DNA of 64,000 nucleotides from Agathobaculum massiliense (GTDB taxonomy: Bacteria > Bacillota > Clostridia > Oscillospirales > Butyricicoccaceae): contig NZ_OMPN01000001.1 of the NCBI RefSeq assembly GCF_900291975.1, positions 2,866,501-2,930,500 of the forward strand, in the 5' to 3' direction. Numbering within the stretch: position 1 is the stretch's first letter; each line of letters starts with the position of its first letter. The notes beneath the pieces were generated by a model that ran no database searches, was not told where the DNA came from, and worked only from the letters and a program-made list of their open reading frames with translations. Positions 50,446-56,822 of this stretch are shown piece by piece. Both the position numbers and the translations under genes were made by a program.

Positions 50446-52584
50446 TCATTCCTCAGAGACGAATACCCCATATATGGCGGAAAAGAGCTTTCTGAAAATG
50501 TTCCCGATGCGGGCGAGTACACCCTCGTCGGCCTGCTCTTGGTTCGCGGCGGCGGTTCCTTCATCATCGTCGAGCGATATCTCATGGGTGCGCAGGATAA
50601 ACTGAAGGCTGGCCGGCGTCGGGTTCTGGCTGCTGGTCACGGACTGAAGCTCGGCTTGCGCATCGATGTTGAGGACATTGGTATCCTCTTCCAGATCCTT
50701 TTCCGCGTCGTCCACCGCGCTGTGGATCGAATCGGTTGCTTTCTGTAGGCTGCTGGAGCTGTTGGAGCGCGCGGCCTTATCCAGAACGTCCAGCAGTCCG
50801 TCGATCGATGTTTGCAGGCTGGCGTCCGCCTGGCCGCGGACCGAGCGCAGGATGCCGTTGGCGGAGTCGAGCATGTCGTAGGAGGCGGACAGCGCTTTGG
50901 TAAGCGCAACCATCAGCTCCTCGCCCTTGTCCGCAGCGGAAACCGCCTCGGTCGTGATCTGCTGCAGGCAGGTGGACAGGGCGGGGATATCGGCCACAAG
51001 CTGATTGACACGCTCGAGCGAGGTGTTCATCAGATCGGCGAGCTTTTTCCCCTCCGCGGTGAAATCCTGCGGCAACCCCTCGTAATCATCCAGCACATCC
51101 GCGATATCCGCAAGGTTTTCCAGGATGCCGTCCGAGGAGGACAGCATGCTCTCCAAGCTGTCCGCGGCGTCCGACAGCGTGCTCAGCGTTTTTTTGGACG
51201 CTGCGATCGTTCCGGACAGGCCAGAGGGGAGGGCGGACAGCATATCGCCTAACGCGGCCGCTTCTTCGGGGGTGATGATGCCAGCGGAAACCAGATGCGC
51301 CAAATCGAGCTGGATCAGTGTGATGAGCGCGTCCTGGATATCCTCCAATGCGGAAAGGGAATTCCTGAGGGAACTCAGGTTGGAGGACAGGCGGCCCATA
51401 TCGTTTTTTAGGTCGTCCACAGCGCTCCGCAGCTGGTCGATATAAAATCCGTCAATATCGGCGGCGTCGTCCAGGTCGTTGAACATATCCTCCAGGTTAT
51501 CCAGGGATATCTTGACTTTGCGGAGCAATTCCTGATATTCGAGGATATCGGCGCCGGATTCCTCAAGCGTGCCGAGCATGCTGTTGACGGTAGCGTTGAG
51601 CGTGACCAGTATGGTTTTCATGGCGTTCAGCTCGGGAATCAGGGAGTCGGATTTGCCGGCAAGCGCTTCCAGCGCGTCAAGGGCCGCGTCGGTTTTGGGG
51701 TCAAGGGTGCCGCGGTCCGCGACAAGCTGCTTGCGCACCTCGTTGATGCCGGATACGCCGTGTGACAGCGTATTAAAGCCGCTCTGCATGCTCTGCAGCG
51801 TTTCCAGCATGCTGCTGAGCCCCTCATACAGGTTGTCGCCCGAGTCCCCGAGGCGGTCCTTGATATCCTTCATATCCGCGAGGATATCGAGCGAGGAAAG
51901 CGTGGCGGGCGCCAGGAAAAGCAGAAGCCCCATGCTTTCAAAGCTGTTTGAGCCGATCCGCACGGTAAAGGTGCTTTCCTCGCCTGGCAGGCCCATGAAA
52001 AAGACGATCTTGTAGGTTCCCATCGACTGCACCTGCGCGCCGGGCGCTTCGATCGAGAGTGCTTTGCTCATGTCGATGCCGGTGCCGCAAATGAGTGTCA
52101 TATTGTTTTTGTAATACTCGCTTGCGGCTTCGTTCGGTACGGCGTGAATGGTCATTTCGATCAAACCGGACGCGCCCGCGCACGTTTCCGCTTCGACGGG
52201 TACGCCGTTAAGCTGATAGGATACATCGAAATTCCACGGAAGCTGTATAGGCTCCTCCCCGTTGGGGATGCATTCATAATAGAAGCGCTGCTGTCCGTCG
52301 TCCGCGATCTCCCAGGTGACCGAACCGTCGCTGAGCGCAGGCTCGTCATAGGTGGACATGTTATATACAGCGCTGTAATCGCCATAGTCGGTAAACGAGG
52401 TATGGCCGTTCAGGTTCACGCCCTTGACGATGCGGGTATCCTCGGGCATGCCATAGTAATCCAGGTTGATATAAACCGCCTCGTCGGTTTCCACGACAGG
52501 CGCGGCGGCAACCGCCGCCTGGGGCAGCAGGAGCGCTGGCAGAAGCGCGCAGGCGGTCAGGCGGCATAGCTTATTTGCGAACAT
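50446..52584 (-). CDS. Secreted coiled-coil exoprotein, partner of MMPL transporter (YhgE/Pip-like layout)
   Basis: The 712-residue product has a signal peptide (L-T-A-C-A-L-L-P-A-L-L-L-P-Q-A-A-V-A-A-A). A beta-rich N-terminal domain covers about residues 30-230, then a hydrophobic stretch (M-G-L-L-L-F-L-A-P-A). About 400 residues of long heptad helices follow (L-E-T-L-Q-S-M-Q-S-G-F, L-R-S-A-V-D-D-L-K-N-D-M), ending in an amphipathic tail (I-F-R-K-L-F-S-A-I-Y-G-V-F). Pip/YhgE-like proteins partner with MMPL/RND exporters. Here the start overlaps the MMPL gene by 14 bp in the same operon. I infer a periplasm-side or cell-wall adaptor. Start 52584 is fixed by GAGGAGGAAAA; a longer frame lacks a ribosome binding site. 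No precise family is recognised. Confidence 0.78.
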   Translation of the reverse strand: MFANKLCRLTACALLPALLLPQAAVAAAPVVETDEAVYINLDYYGMPEDTRIVKGVNLNGHTSFTDYGDYSAVYNMSTYDEPALSDGSVTWEIADDGQQRFYYECIPNGEEPIQLPWNFDVSYQLNGVPVEAETCAGASGLIEMTIHAVPNEAASEYYKNNMTLICGTGIDMSKALSIEAPGAQVQSMGTYKIVFFMGLPGEESTFTVRIGSNSFESMGLLLFLAPATLSSLDILADMKDIKDRLGDSGDNLYEGLSSMLETLQSMQSGFNTLSHGVSGINEVRKQLVADRGTLDPKTDAALDALEALAGKSDSLIPELNAMKTILVTLNATVNSMLGTLEESGADILEYQELLRKVKISLDNLEDMFNDLDDAADIDGFYIDQLRSAVDDLKNDMGRLSSNLSSLRNSLSALEDIQDALITLIQLDLAHLVSAGIITPEEAAALGDMLSALPSGLSGTIAASKKTLSTLSDAADSLESMLSSSDGILENLADIADVLDDYEGLPQDFTAEGKKLADLMNTSLERVNQLVADIPALSTCLQQITTEAVSAADKGEELMVALTKALSASYDMLDSANGILRSVRGQADASLQTSIDGLLDVLDKAARSNSSSSLQKATDSIHSAVDDAEKDLEEDTNVLNIDAQAELQSVTSSQNPTPASLQFILRTHEISLDDDEGTAAANQEQADEGVLARIGNIFRKLFSAIYGVFVSEE

Positions 52585-54883
52585 GGTTGTTTTCCTCCTC
52601 TCGGTCGGCCTTATCCGGTGTATCCGCCGGCTTTTGCGGATGGAGCAGGCGCATGAGCCGGTTCCGGATGGCCTTATGTCGGGCGCGGCGGTTTTCGCGG
52701 ATTTGTTCCTGCAGGCGCAGACGCTGCTCATGCAGCGCGCTGAGCGTGGGCAGCGTTAGCTTTTTGTCGCGAATGCGGTTCATCCTGGCGTGCTTTTTCT
52801 GCGCGTAATCCGGCTTTATGATCCAGCGGTCGAACAGCATCAGGCACATCGGCAGCAGGAACAGCACAAGGATCATGGAGATCAGCGCGCCGCGGCCGAT
52901 CAGTTGCCCCAGGCCTGACACCGCCTCGACCGAGGTGAGGAAGAACAGGCCGTAGGCGACCGTCATGATAATCAGGCCGGAGGTCAGGATGGATTCCGCG
53001 CTAACCGTGACCGCGCGGATGGCAGCCTCCCGTTTATCGCCCTGCGAACGGGCGTCCAGATAGTTGCCGGTCAGCAGGATGGAATAATCGATTGTCGCGC
53101 CGAGCTGGATACAGCCGACGATAATAAAGCCGAGGTACATGGTGCGCTGTCCGTAGATGTAGGGCAGCGCGGTGTTGATGTAAATGGCGCATTCGATCGG
53201 GATCAGCACGACCAGCGGCAGCAGCAGCGCCTTATAGGTGATTGCCACCACCAGCGCGACGCCCAGCAGCGAGACGATGTTGACTCGGTTGTTATCCGGC
53301 ACGATGATTTCCTTGATATCCTGTGTAGAGGGAGTTACGCCGACCAGATAGGTCTGCTCATCCGGATAATACCGGTCGATGACGGCGCGGATCTCATCCG
53401 CATATCGGAACGCCGCGTCGCTTTCGCCGGCGGAACGGACGTTGATGATTACGCGCGCCCAGTGCTCGGAGTGCAGGATGCCGGTGATGCTCTCCGGCAA
53501 AAAATCCTCCGGTATGCCGGAGGGCAGGACCGAAGCCAGGCCGAGAGAATATTTGACATAGGGCAGGCTGTCCAGTTCCTCGCTCATGGCCTTTTCCGTG
53601 ACGTTGCTGTCCAGCGGGACCAGGGCGAGCATCATATTGCTCTGTCCGAATTCCGCGTTCATCCGTTGCTCAGCCTCATAGACCGGCGTGCCGGGGGAGT
53701 TGGCGACCGCCTCATTGCCATAGGTGAAATCGGCCATGCCCTGCGCGACATAGCAGGGGACGATCAGTACCATCACCACGATCAGGATCGGCTTGCGGAC
53801 TTTGTACACAAACTCCCCGAAGCCGCGCCACTGCTTGGGGACGAACGGCCGGTGTTGGGTCTTCGCTACGATATTCTGGCTGCGCAGGATCAGCGCGGGC
53901 ATCAGCAGCAGCACGGTGACAAGGCTCAGCGCGATGCCTTTTGCCAGCACCAGCCCCATATCCGGACCGATGCCGAAGTTCATCAGCACCATGGCGGCAA
54001 AGCCGACGATGGTTGTCGCGCCGGAGGCGCCGATCGAGGAAACGGCCGAGCGCAGCGCGTTGGCCATGGCCTGCTCGGGTTCGGCGCCGTTGGCCCGTTC
54101 CTCGGTGAACGCATGCAGTAGGAAAATGGAGTAGTCCATCGAACAGGCGAGCTGTAGGACCGCGCCCACCGCGTTGGATAGGAATGAGATCTCGCCGAAT
54201 ATGATGTTGGAGCCCATGTTGATGATAATGGCGATGCCAAGCACCGAAAGGAACAGCACAGGCTCAAACCAGGAGGTTGTGGTGAGCGTCAGGATCAGAT
54301 AGATGATGATGACCGCAAGCACCATCACGCGCGCGACCTCCGCGTTGATCGTGGGGCCGAGGTTGGTGTCTGACACCGCTGAACCGGCCACCAGGCCGCG
54401 GTCCCCGACGATCTGCTCGATCTCCCGAACCGCCTTGTGCGTCCGGCTGGACGAATCCTTCTCCAAAAAGATGACGTCCATATAGGCCTTTCCGTCCTTG
54501 TAGTAATCCTCGATGTCCGTGTAGTCGATAAATGCGCTGGAACCGTAGATGTTGGTCTCCAGATCGCACCACATGACCATATCGACGCCCTCTACATCGG
54601 CGATGCGGTCCTTGACGTTTTTCGCCTCGTACAGCGTGACATCCTCCAGCATGACGCGCCCCATGCCGGGATAGGTGAATTCGTCCTCCATGATATCGAG
54701 CGCCTGCGCGGATGGACTGGAATCCGGCAGGTATTTTGTCAGGTCGTAGTTAACGCCGACCATTGGGATACAGATCAAACTGAAAATGATAAGTACGGTA
54801 AACACTTTTTCGATCAGCCTGCGGCTGTGAATGATCAGGTCAACAGGACTATGTCCCTTTCGTTTCACAAAGAAAAACACCAT
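52571..54883 (-). CDS. MMPL/RND-family (HAE3-type) exporter
   Basis: The 770-residue protein has two SSD/MMPL halves. Each has one helix, a large extracytoplasmic loop and a cluster of helices (first I-E-K-V-F-T-V-L-I-I-F-S-L-I-C-I-P; cluster with L-A-C-S-M-D-Y-S-I-F-L-L-H-A-F about residue 235; second cluster with Q-L-G-A-T-I-D-Y-S-I-L-L-T-G about 610). The paired Asp-Tyr residues are the expected proton-relay positions. The family exports lipids, siderophores or toxic hydrophobic compounds. ATG 54883 lies downstream of the -10 box; earlier in-frame ATGs would be at or before the transcription start. The operon continues with the exoprotein and is divergent from TetR, its likely repressor. 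Confidence 0.9.
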   Translation of the reverse strand: MVFFFVKRKGHSPVDLIIHSRRLIEKVFTVLIIFSLICIPMVGVNYDLTKYLPDSSPSAQALDIMEDEFTYPGMGRVMLEDVTLYEAKNVKDRIADVEGVDMVMWCDLETNIYGSSAFIDYTDIEDYYKDGKAYMDVIFLEKDSSSRTHKAVREIEQIVGDRGLVAGSAVSDTNLGPTINAEVARVMVLAVIIIYLILTLTTTSWFEPVLFLSVLGIAIIINMGSNIIFGEISFLSNAVGAVLQLACSMDYSIFLLHAFTEERANGAEPEQAMANALRSAVSSIGASGATTIVGFAAMVLMNFGIGPDMGLVLAKGIALSLVTVLLLMPALILRSQNIVAKTQHRPFVPKQWRGFGEFVYKVRKPILIVVMVLIVPCYVAQGMADFTYGNEAVANSPGTPVYEAEQRMNAEFGQSNMMLALVPLDSNVTEKAMSEELDSLPYVKYSLGLASVLPSGIPEDFLPESITGILHSEHWARVIINVRSAGESDAAFRYADEIRAVIDRYYPDEQTYLVGVTPSTQDIKEIIVPDNNRVNIVSLLGVALVVAITYKALLLPLVVLIPIECAIYINTALPYIYGQRTMYLGFIIVGCIQLGATIDYSILLTGNYLDARSQGDKREAAIRAVTVSAESILTSGLIIMTVAYGLFFLTSVEAVSGLGQLIGRGALISMILVLFLLPMCLMLFDRWIIKPDYAQKKHARMNRIRDKKLTLPTLSALHEQRLRLQEQIRENRRARHKAIRNRLMRLLHPQKPADTPDKADREEENNHVRK

Positions 54884-54920
54884 CTTTCTTGAAAATAGAC
54901 ATTGCGTACGATTTCTTTTC

Positions 54921-55015
54921 ATGTTATAGTATAGTACATAAGGATAACATACACAATAATCAAATCTATTCATAATGAATGATAATAAACAAAATATATT
55001 TTAATGTATGTTATC
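54921..55015. promoter_or_regulatory. MMPL/TetR divergent control region with repeated ATGTTAT operator motif
   Basis: Three ATGTTAT copies occur: 54921-54927 (+), 54944-54950 (-) and 55008-55014 (+). The first two form an inverted pair around the MMPL -10 box. A longer arm, GATAACATACA (54943-54953), is matched exactly by TGTATGTTATC (55005-55015). TetR binding here is inferred. Confidence 0.6.
54928..54956 (-). promoter_or_regulatory. Promoter of the MMPL operon
   Basis: On the minus strand TTGTGT, 17-bp spacer, TATACT, overlapped by the ATGTTAT motifs. Confidence 0.65.
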
Positions 55016-55044
55016 TTTGGAGTAATGGACAGGAGGGAGTCCTG

Positions 55045-55602
55045 ATGGAGGAGCGGGAGGACAAACGCATCAGGCGCACGAAAAAGCTGCTGCGGCAGGC
55101 ATTGACAAGGCTGATGCAGCAAAAGGATTTTCAGAGCATCACCGTGACCGATGTGGTGCGGGAAGCGGATATCAACCGCGGAACGTTTTATGCGCATTAT
55201 CGGGATGTTTACGATCTGCGTGAAAAAATAGAAAGCGAAATGATCGCGGACTTTCGCGGAATGATCGACGATATCCATTTGAACGGCGGCGGCTCCCTGC
55301 ATCCGGTGCTCATGCGCGCGGTGGATTATCTGGAGGAGAATCGGGAGATTGTGACCACGCTGGTCCGTGTGAGCGGAGCGGAGGGGTTCAGCAAAAAGCT
55401 GATCCATGTGATTGAGGAATGCCGCATGGAGTCCGTGCCGTGCAGGGGCGTGGAGGATGTTTACGTCGCGCGCTTTATTGCGACCGGCGTGGTAGGGATG
55501 CTCGAACGGTGGGTCGCGGAATCGCAGCCGCTGCCGAAAAATGAGTTGATCGCGCTGATGGAACATATCCTTTCCCCCATGCTGCAGTCGGCCAGGGGAT
55601 AA
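55045..55602 (+). CDS. TetR/AcrR family transcriptional regulator
   Basis: The 185-residue product has an N-terminal TetR HTH (R-T-K-K-L-L-R-Q-A-L-T-R-L-M-Q-Q-K-D-F-Q-S-I-T-V-T-D-V-V-R-E-A-D-I-N-R-G-T-F-Y-A-H-Y, residues 11-52) and a helical C-terminal ligand domain without a recognisable pocket signature. ATG 55045 follows AGGAGGG at 8 nt. It is divergent from the MMPL operon across 160 bp that contain repeated ATGTTAT motifs, so it is probably the repressor of that exporter and itself. Confidence 0.92.
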   Translation: MEEREDKRIRRTKKLLRQALTRLMQQKDFQSITVTDVVREADINRGTFYAHYRDVYDLREKIESEMIADFRGMIDDIHLNGGGSLHPVLMRAVDYLEENREIVTTLVRVSGAEGFSKKLIHVIEECRMESVPCRGVEDVYVARFIATGVVGMLERWVAESQPLPKNELIALMEHILSPMLQSARG

Positions 55603-55603
55603 A

Positions 55604-55629
55604 AAACGCATGCTTTTCAGCATGCGTTT
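55604..55629. terminator. Bidirectional terminator between tetR and glycosyltransferase genes
   Basis: AAACGCATGC/GCATGCGTTT stem. The glycosyltransferase stop codon lies in the loop. Confidence 0.85.
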
Positions 55630-56765
55630 GATGGTTCATTCCATTGCAATACAAAATCCGCGAGCCGTTCGGTTGCATCCGGATGGGCGACCGCCTGCAT
55701 GGTCTGGCGCACGGTCGCCAGACGGGCGGGGTTGCGGAACAGCTCGTACACGGCCTCGTCGATCGGGAAATGCTTGGTGATCTGCGCCGCCATCCCGTTG
55801 TTGACCAGGAACTCCACGTTGCGCTCCTCATGGCCGGGGATCGGGTCGACAAGCAGCATGGGCAGGTTTTTGGCAAGCGCCTCGGATACCGTCAGGCCGC
55901 CGGGCTTGGAAACGATGCAGTCCGCAGCGCTCATCATTACCTCTACGTTGTGGACAAAGCCGTATGGCTTGATCACACAGTCGCCCTGATAGCGGGAGGC
56001 GAACTGTTCAACCTGTAGAAACTGCTTTTTGTTGTTGCCGCAGACCACAAGAAGCTGCAGCGGGAAGCCGAGCGCGGTCAGCTTTTCCAGCGTTTTTACA
56101 TGGTCGGCATAGCCCATGCTACCGCCCATGAGCAGGAGCGTGCGCTGCTGCGGGTCAATGCCGAGCTGCGCCGCAGCGTCCGCCCGCGACAGCTTTTGGT
56201 TGAATTTCGGATGCACCGGTATGCCGAACGGCAGGATGCGGCGCTCGGGTATGCCGCGCTTGACGCAGCGGAAGGTGAGCAGTTCGCTTGCCGTTACAAT
56301 ATACTGTACATGCGGCACGTCTTCCCAGTAGGGATGCAGGGTGTAGTCGGTCACGATGCCGATGGTTTTGATATCGTCAAGCTTTTTTCGCTTTTTCAGC
56401 TCATCCACCATCTGCGCGGCGAAAACGTGCGTGCAGAGGATTACATCGGGCGCGTAGCCCGCAATCACCCTGGCGAACTTGGACGCCCCGAGGGCATTGA
56501 TGATGTTGATAATGCTGGGGCCAGCGGTGAAATAGCCCGCGCCGCCGTTTTCCGCAAGCTGATAGACCAGACGGTACAGCGTCTGCATGTGCTTGGAGGA
56601 AAACAGGTAGCCCTTGTCAATGGTTGCCCTGATCAGGTTGCTGATGTAGGCGTAAACGTCCAGCGTATGCACATCGGCGCCCTTGCTGGTCAGCATGTCG
56701 CCCACGGCCTTTGCGGTCGCATGGTGTCCAAAGCCTGCTGTGACAGATAAAATCAATACTCTCAT
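55617..56765 (-). CDS. Diacylglycerol glycosyltransferase (MGDG synthase/UgtP-like, GT28)
   Basis: The 382-residue product starts M-R-V-L-I-L-S-V-T-A-G-F-G-H-H-A-T-A-K-A, the acceptor-side signature of MGDG-synthase-type enzymes (a S-x-G-x-G-H variant). The GT-B C-terminal UDP-sugar domain shows L-L-M-G-G-S-M-G-Y-A, K-P-Y-G-F-V, and S-K-P-G-G-L-T-V-S-E-A-L-A. Such enzymes make glycolipids (anchors for lipoteichoic acid) at the membrane inner face. Donor sugar not predictable. ATG 56765 has AGGAGAGG upstream. spoVG lies just upstream on the same strand, separated by 57 bp. Confidence 0.92.
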   Translation of the reverse strand: MRVLILSVTAGFGHHATAKAVGDMLTSKGADVHTLDVYAYISNLIRATIDKGYLFSSKHMQTLYRLVYQLAENGGAGYFTAGPSIINIINALGASKFARVIAGYAPDVILCTHVFAAQMVDELKKRKKLDDIKTIGIVTDYTLHPYWEDVPHVQYIVTASELLTFRCVKRGIPERRILPFGIPVHPKFNQKLSRADAAAQLGIDPQQRTLLLMGGSMGYADHVKTLEKLTALGFPLQLLVVCGNNKKQFLQVEQFASRYQGDCVIKPYGFVHNVEVMMSAADCIVSKPGGLTVSEALAKNLPMLLVDPIPGHEERNVEFLVNNGMAAQITKHFPIDEAVYELFRNPARLATVRQTMQAVAHPDATERLADFVLQWNEPSNAC

Positions 56766-56822
56766 ACCGGTACCTCTCCTTGTATAAGAGTTATTGTACA
56801 TCAAAACAGGAAAAAAAGCAAA

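Follow-up and report, generated by a model that had tools for sequence, protein, structure and literature searches.

The window, a stretch of 64,000 nucleotides of Agathobaculum massiliense matched most closely, among named sequences, by Agathobaculum and Butyricicoccus contigs, carries the gene of an MMPL-type transporter and, overlapping its end on the same strand, the gene of a long coiled-coil protein with a predicted secretion signal, referred to as the exoprotein. A TetR-family regulator gene is divergent from the pair. The features of the locus are as follows, with residue numbers being those of the exoprotein.

52571..54886, minus strand: MMPL transporter gene, 771 aa; PF03176, with a model like MmpL4/MmpL5
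50446..52584, minus strand: exoprotein gene, 712 aa; open reading frame with its ATG in the MMPL 3′ end, conserved in 38 aligned relatives
52571..52584, minus strand: 14-bp overlap of the MMPL and exoprotein genes, from the reading frame coordinates
52501..52584, minus strand: predicted signal-type segment, residues 1-28; hydrophobic N terminus, read from the sequence
51907..52491, minus strand: beta domain, residues 32-226, from the AlphaFold2 model; holds most invariant residues
50665..51900, minus strand: helical stalk, residues 229-640; helices 270-374 and 451-604 are heptad-periodic
50590..50610, minus strand: post-stalk strand, residues 659-665; pLDDT about 90, conserved flank S648-T666
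50458..50520, minus strand: C-terminal helix, residues 689-709; pLDDT about 70, R692 invariant and F708 nearly so in 38 rows
54928..54956, minus strand: putative MMPL promoter, TTGTGT-N17-TATACT, conserved in 16 aligned intergenic regions
54901..54957, unstranded: dyad around the putative MMPL promoter; its arms, 54948-54957 and 54901-54910, show 76% complementarity in 16 orthologs
54982..55014, unstranded: tetR-side dyad, arms 55005-55014 and 54982-54991, 69% complementary over 16 orthologs
55045..55602, plus strand: divergent TetR-family regulator gene; PF00440 and PF14278 over cut-off

The exoprotein gene extends from an ATG at 52584 through 712 codons plus stop to 50446, and the MMPL stop ends at 52571, which bears out the 14-bp overlap reported in the earlier note. 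Translational coupling of the two genes is suggested because the exoprotein start lies within the MMPL 3′ end in several relatives too (L026, L027, L030 and L031 among them). The most likely start of the MMPL gene is 54886, as judged from ortholog alignments and the putative promoter. A plasmid search returned no match, and a PHROGs search a single weak one, in the coiled coil. At 55617-56804, convergent with tetR, is a gene for an MGDG-synthase-like glycosyltransferase (PF06925), which 11 close relatives also have. Through this neighbour a connection with glycolipid synthesis was considered and dropped, the gene being present in 11 of the loci searched and in none of the distant ones. Apparently decayed or frame-broken copies of the MMPL or exoprotein gene were seen at L170 (genome G334), L123 (G292) and L066.

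The divergent regulator and its control region

By its sequence the regulator belongs to the TetR family, with PF00440 at 28.7 bits (cut-off 24) and PF14278 at 46.2 bits (cut-off 26.1). Identity with the DhaS regulator (TIGR02366) was ruled out at 55.2 bits against a cut-off of 129. A TetR-type gene was found near the MMPL gene in 68 of 97 loci, a set which takes in a second MMPL type, described below, and a few more distant MMPLs; 46 are divergent and 22 codirectional, none was found at 24 loci, and five loci are cut off upstream.

In a scan of symmetric placements the two dyads score highest, against a background mean of 30% (sd 9, 8048 placements), their scores being raised by shared ancestry because the 16 aligned regions come from close relatives. 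The dyad at 54901-54957 is centred on the -10 of the putative MMPL promoter, which is absent from the list given by a sigma-70 consensus scan. The inverted ATGTTAT motifs described in the earlier note are present in the 158-bp divergent region. ATGTTAT/ATAACAT occurs there three times, at 54921, 54944 and 55008, against an expected mean of 0.16 in first-order Markov copies, and the probability of three or more (0.0007, 20,000 copies) is optimistic because the motif had been picked from the same sequence. In the window it overlaps both dyads, and its exact form is lost in most relatives. The longest exact inverted repeat, of 11 bp, is not unusual, as 355 of 3000 copies reach at least 11. The conserved dyads fit putative TetR control of the region.

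Architecture of the transporter and the exoprotein

The transporter is a member of the MMPL / RND superfamily. It matches PF03176 at 177.3 bits (cut-off 20.5), and its model (mean pLDDT 81.7, pTM 0.75) has 12 long helices, with MmpL4/MmpL5 chains making up its sixteen best PDB matches (TM-score about 0.70-0.75). Asp-Tyr pairs in TM4 and TM10 are a role-bearing trait of this superfamily; in the window they are D251-Y252 and D600-Y601, invariant in 25 aligned rows. Its TM7-TM8 loop is 133 residues long, within the range of 123-138 residues seen, where the loop is complete, in MMPLs paired with beta-domain exoproteins. This loop is without a long insert, which rules out the MmpL4/5/10 type with the coiled coil in cis. 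An MMPL-type sequence on two contigs of G265 (L164 and L165) has a very long insert resembling helical repeats in the second periplasmic domain.

The exoprotein reached no family cut-off in a Pfam and NCBIfam scan, its weak matches being mostly to coiled-coil families. This finding, the signal-type N terminus and the stalk period agree with the earlier description of a 712-residue secreted coiled-coil protein of no recognised family. The AlphaFold2 model gives the beta domain a pLDDT of 76-95 per ten-residue block. Relative placement of the parts is unreliable because the whole model has a pTM of 0.42 and a mean pLDDT of 72.1. The stalk is a coiled coil, with a hydrophobic period of 3.5 residues in both long helices, matched by none of 2000 shuffles each. 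From the predicted secondary structure, its two arms may form one hairpin with the tip near residues 434-450, the placement being uncertain at this pTM. Apart from the start Met, the invariant residues of the 38-row alignment fall at 35-226 in the beta domain, at 648-666 after the stalk and at R692 in the C-terminal helix.

The earlier note held that the C terminus lacks clear membrane helices. That part stands, and to it is added the conserved helix at 689-709. Complete homologues range from about 500 to 1052 residues, with stalk length varying widely. When 85 of them, not deduplicated and with five truncated homologues set aside, were classed by how far they extend past the post-stalk strand, 71 had a tail of 28-50 residues, 11 almost none and three a membrane helix there. 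L058 and L125, with tails so hydrophobic that they could be taken for membrane helices, were entered as tails. Apart from the homologues with a membrane helix or a hydrophobic tail, the C-terminal part shows no membrane-length hydrophobic stretch.

A resemblance to the YhgE/Pip/EsaA adaptors, also proposed in the earlier note, did not hold as kinship. YhgE proteins share the heptad repeat TIGR03057. It is found in four of five scanned distant relatives of the exoprotein, and both kinds of protein carry a long extracytoplasmic coiled coil. However, the N-terminal beta domain is unrelated, with an hhalign probability of 0.4 against four YhgE proteins, where a split-family control gave 99.6. Of the exoprotein, the coiled coil alone aligned with YhgE, at 96.9. 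It also lacks the five membrane helices at the C terminus of YhgE, and no NCBIfam match to the pip_yhgE models was obtained. For an RND periplasmic adaptor of the HlyD/AcrA type, no HlyD-family domain was found among the best 25 Pfam matches (up to E 1).

The beta domain is similar in fold to the mu homology domains of clathrin adaptors. It superposes on 9uuk_A with a Z of 11.6 over 192 residues (rmsd 4.2), and Foldseek aligns it to 4mdr_A with an E of 3.3e-6 and a TM-score of 0.46 by target. Identity is about 10%, those domains belong to eukaryotic cytosolic proteins, and no adaptor protein appears among the PDB sequence matches of the beta domain. On the model, the likeness probably reflects a two-lobed beta topology in common and not kinship.

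Among better known systems, MmpL4, MmpL5 and MmpL10 with MmpS (PDB 9syj, 8zkp, 9rfu) share the MMPL fold and the Asp-Tyr pairs and, according to three papers (PMC12501195, PMC12346298, PMC12183618), also include a long coiled coil and a domain of beta strands. It has been reported that periplasmic domain 2 of MmpL5 contains a coiled-coil insert of 196 residues, the deletion of which abolishes efflux, and that the coiled coil is proposed to form a tube (PMC12501195). A hairpin of 125 A is described in PMC12346298, together with an MmpS5 built of a single membrane helix and eight beta strands, and oligomer formation of MmpL10 requires its coiled coil according to PMC12183618. In contrast, the coiled coil and the beta domain at this locus are found on one separate secreted protein. 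Set against MmpS, the exoprotein begins with a hydrophobic segment and has a beta domain of larger size, for which a sequence search of the PDB up to E 10 found no relation to MmpS or to any PDB chain. As for folds, the matches listed for the exoprotein model include no MmpL or MmpS chain, a comparison by which the stalk is barely probed.

Pairing across the phylum

Among 60 relatives, the own genome included, the exoprotein was found in 24, with the MMPL beside it in 24 of 24. At 44 loci found through the MMPL gene the exoprotein is present in 41, and the other three end within the MMPL gene at a contig edge. A larger sample of 398 genomes of the phylum was searched with a beta-domain profile (A5), which matched 49; organisms overlap between the three sets. 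The whole-protein profile A1 was abandoned as a census tool at 276 of 398 genomes because its coiled-coil part drew generic coiled coils. Removal of G205, with 21 bits over 75 profile positions, left 48 beta-domain genomes. Two pieces in G292 were taken as one gene, and two MMPL fragments in G416 as one MMPL.

In 43 of these 48 genomes an MMPL gene of this type directly precedes the beta-domain gene on the same strand. The exoprotein is thus not widespread apart from the transporter. Counted from the MMPL side (matches of at least 380 bits in 47 genomes, plus G416, so that weaker matches and fragments, such as those in G224 and G430 and a second one in G330, fall outside the count), the partner is present in 43 of 48. 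Three of the others are cut by contig ends (G299, G328 and G394), and two, G307 and G375, both of one genus, are without a partner beside the MMPL. The pair therefore behaves as a unit in both directions, in line with the two-part arrangement proposed earlier, and a single shared function of the two proteins is highly probable.

The five remaining beta-domain genes have no MMPL next to them. Those of G222, G297 and G446 encode a C-terminal membrane helix and are adjoined by a small multi-helix protein, with no MMPL in the surrounding DNA searched. The gene of G267 is partial, and in G307 the MMPL is on a separate contig. Divergent beta-domain exoproteins with a C-terminal membrane helix were recorded at L136:3561-5684, L151:4596-6566 and L152:3426-5390, each adjoined by a small multi-helix protein (one matches DUF1097) and with no MMPL in the surrounding DNA searched. 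The gene order is reversed in G026 (contig C57; L023/L025), where TetR is divergent, the exoprotein comes first and the MMPL directly follows.

Another Clostridial MMPL type, with a TM7-TM8 loop of 209-211 residues, is present in G130, G191, G200, G228 and G388. Each time it is followed directly by the gene of a large secreted-type protein whose GLUG repeats exceed the Pfam cut-off. Long heptad-like stretches with a period of 3.5 residues were found in all four GLUG proteins scanned (L161, L162/L168, L163 and L167; the fifth, L166, was outside the scan), matched by none of 300 shuffled segments per protein. GLUG-type motifs flank the periodic region in both complete proteins (L168 and L163), and the others run off the sequence examined. 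The beta-domain profile gave no match to three GLUG proteins (probability 0.2). These five sequences suggest convergence, with the same stalk design placed on an unrelated scaffold. This pairing is the strongest indirect argument suggesting that the stalk is what the MMPL needs.

A possible split exporter and its alternatives

On balance, and by a modest margin, the MMPL and the exoprotein are read as a proton-driven exporter of lipids or amphiphiles with its stalk supplied in trans. The MMPL, driven by the proton gradient, would pick up a lipid or other hydrophobic or amphiphilic compound on the outer side of the membrane. The secreted exoprotein would dock by its beta domain onto the small periplasmic domains of the MMPL, and its C-terminal helix would anchor to the membrane or to the MMPL. 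The coiled-coil hairpin, each arm of which has some 160 residues and would, if straight, measure up to about 24 nm, would reach into the wall, where stalks would probably bundle and guide the cargo away. The exoprotein would thus give in trans what MmpL4, MmpL5 and MmpL10 have in cis, joined to a beta-domain adaptor doing the job of MmpS, while the divergent TetR would set expression of the pair. That the stalk is the trans-acting counterpart of the MmpL coiled coil is held a little above even, and passage of the cargo along it is possible, though doubtful. A lipid, fatty acid or bile-type amphiphile as the substrate is a guess from the family. Several points speak against the trans-stalk exporter, namely the low pTM of the exoprotein model, the five beta-domain genes away from an MMPL, the two MMPLs without a partner, the 11 homologues of 85 without a C-terminal tail and the failure of the PDB sequence search to relate the beta domain to MmpS or any other chain.

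The exoprotein may instead be a partner of the MMPL without being a conduit, the beta domain acting as cargo receptor or chaperone and the stalk as spacer or wall tether. The clustering of invariant residues in the beta domain, and not in the stalk, and the wide variation in stalk length favour this rather unlikely alternative, but the mycobacterial coiled coil is required for efflux and proposed as a tube in PMC12501195, and the second MMPL type retains a coiled-coil region on its unrelated scaffold. An independent surface protein, merely an operon-mate of the MMPL, would explain the predicted secretion signal of its own and the five of 48 beta-domain genes found elsewhere; the phylum-wide pairing, with essentially one copy of each, makes this very improbable.

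The gene layout, which alone was compared, recalls FarE/FarR of Staphylococcus aureus, where the available parts of two papers describe an MMPL-type pump with a divergent TetR and mention no coiled-coil partner (PMC8844917, PMC10019231). The locus could accordingly be read as such a detoxification pump, acting on fatty acids or bile-type amphiphiles, in which the exoprotein would be a minor accessory. The frequency of TetR-type genes near the MMPL is in keeping with such a pump, but loss of the exoprotein is far too rare for a minor accessory, and the reading is improbable. By analogy, the locus would most resemble MmpS-MmpL as a machine and FarE/FarR in its regulation. Among the matches listed from the open-licence literature, with subscription papers mostly outside it, there was no publication on such an MMPL/stalk pair, which is weak evidence.

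More broadly, and tentatively, the exporter reading may extend to Clostridial MMPL exporters as split machines. The conduit would be secreted as a protein of its own, a design arrived at twice, on beta scaffolds unrelated to each other (the two-lobed beta domain and GLUG), with a wall-spanning stalk of adjustable length in monoderms. In mycobacteria the MmpL coiled coil belongs to the pump protein, and work is under way on whether it acts as a tube, as a tether or as an oligomerisation device. Stalk, adaptor and pump could here be separately removed, swapped or lengthened because the functions seem split over two proteins. The pair reading would assign a role to a Clostridial protein family that has no name, and it would point to a way in which an RND-type pump could bring hydrophobic cargo into or across a thick wall in the absence of an outer membrane.
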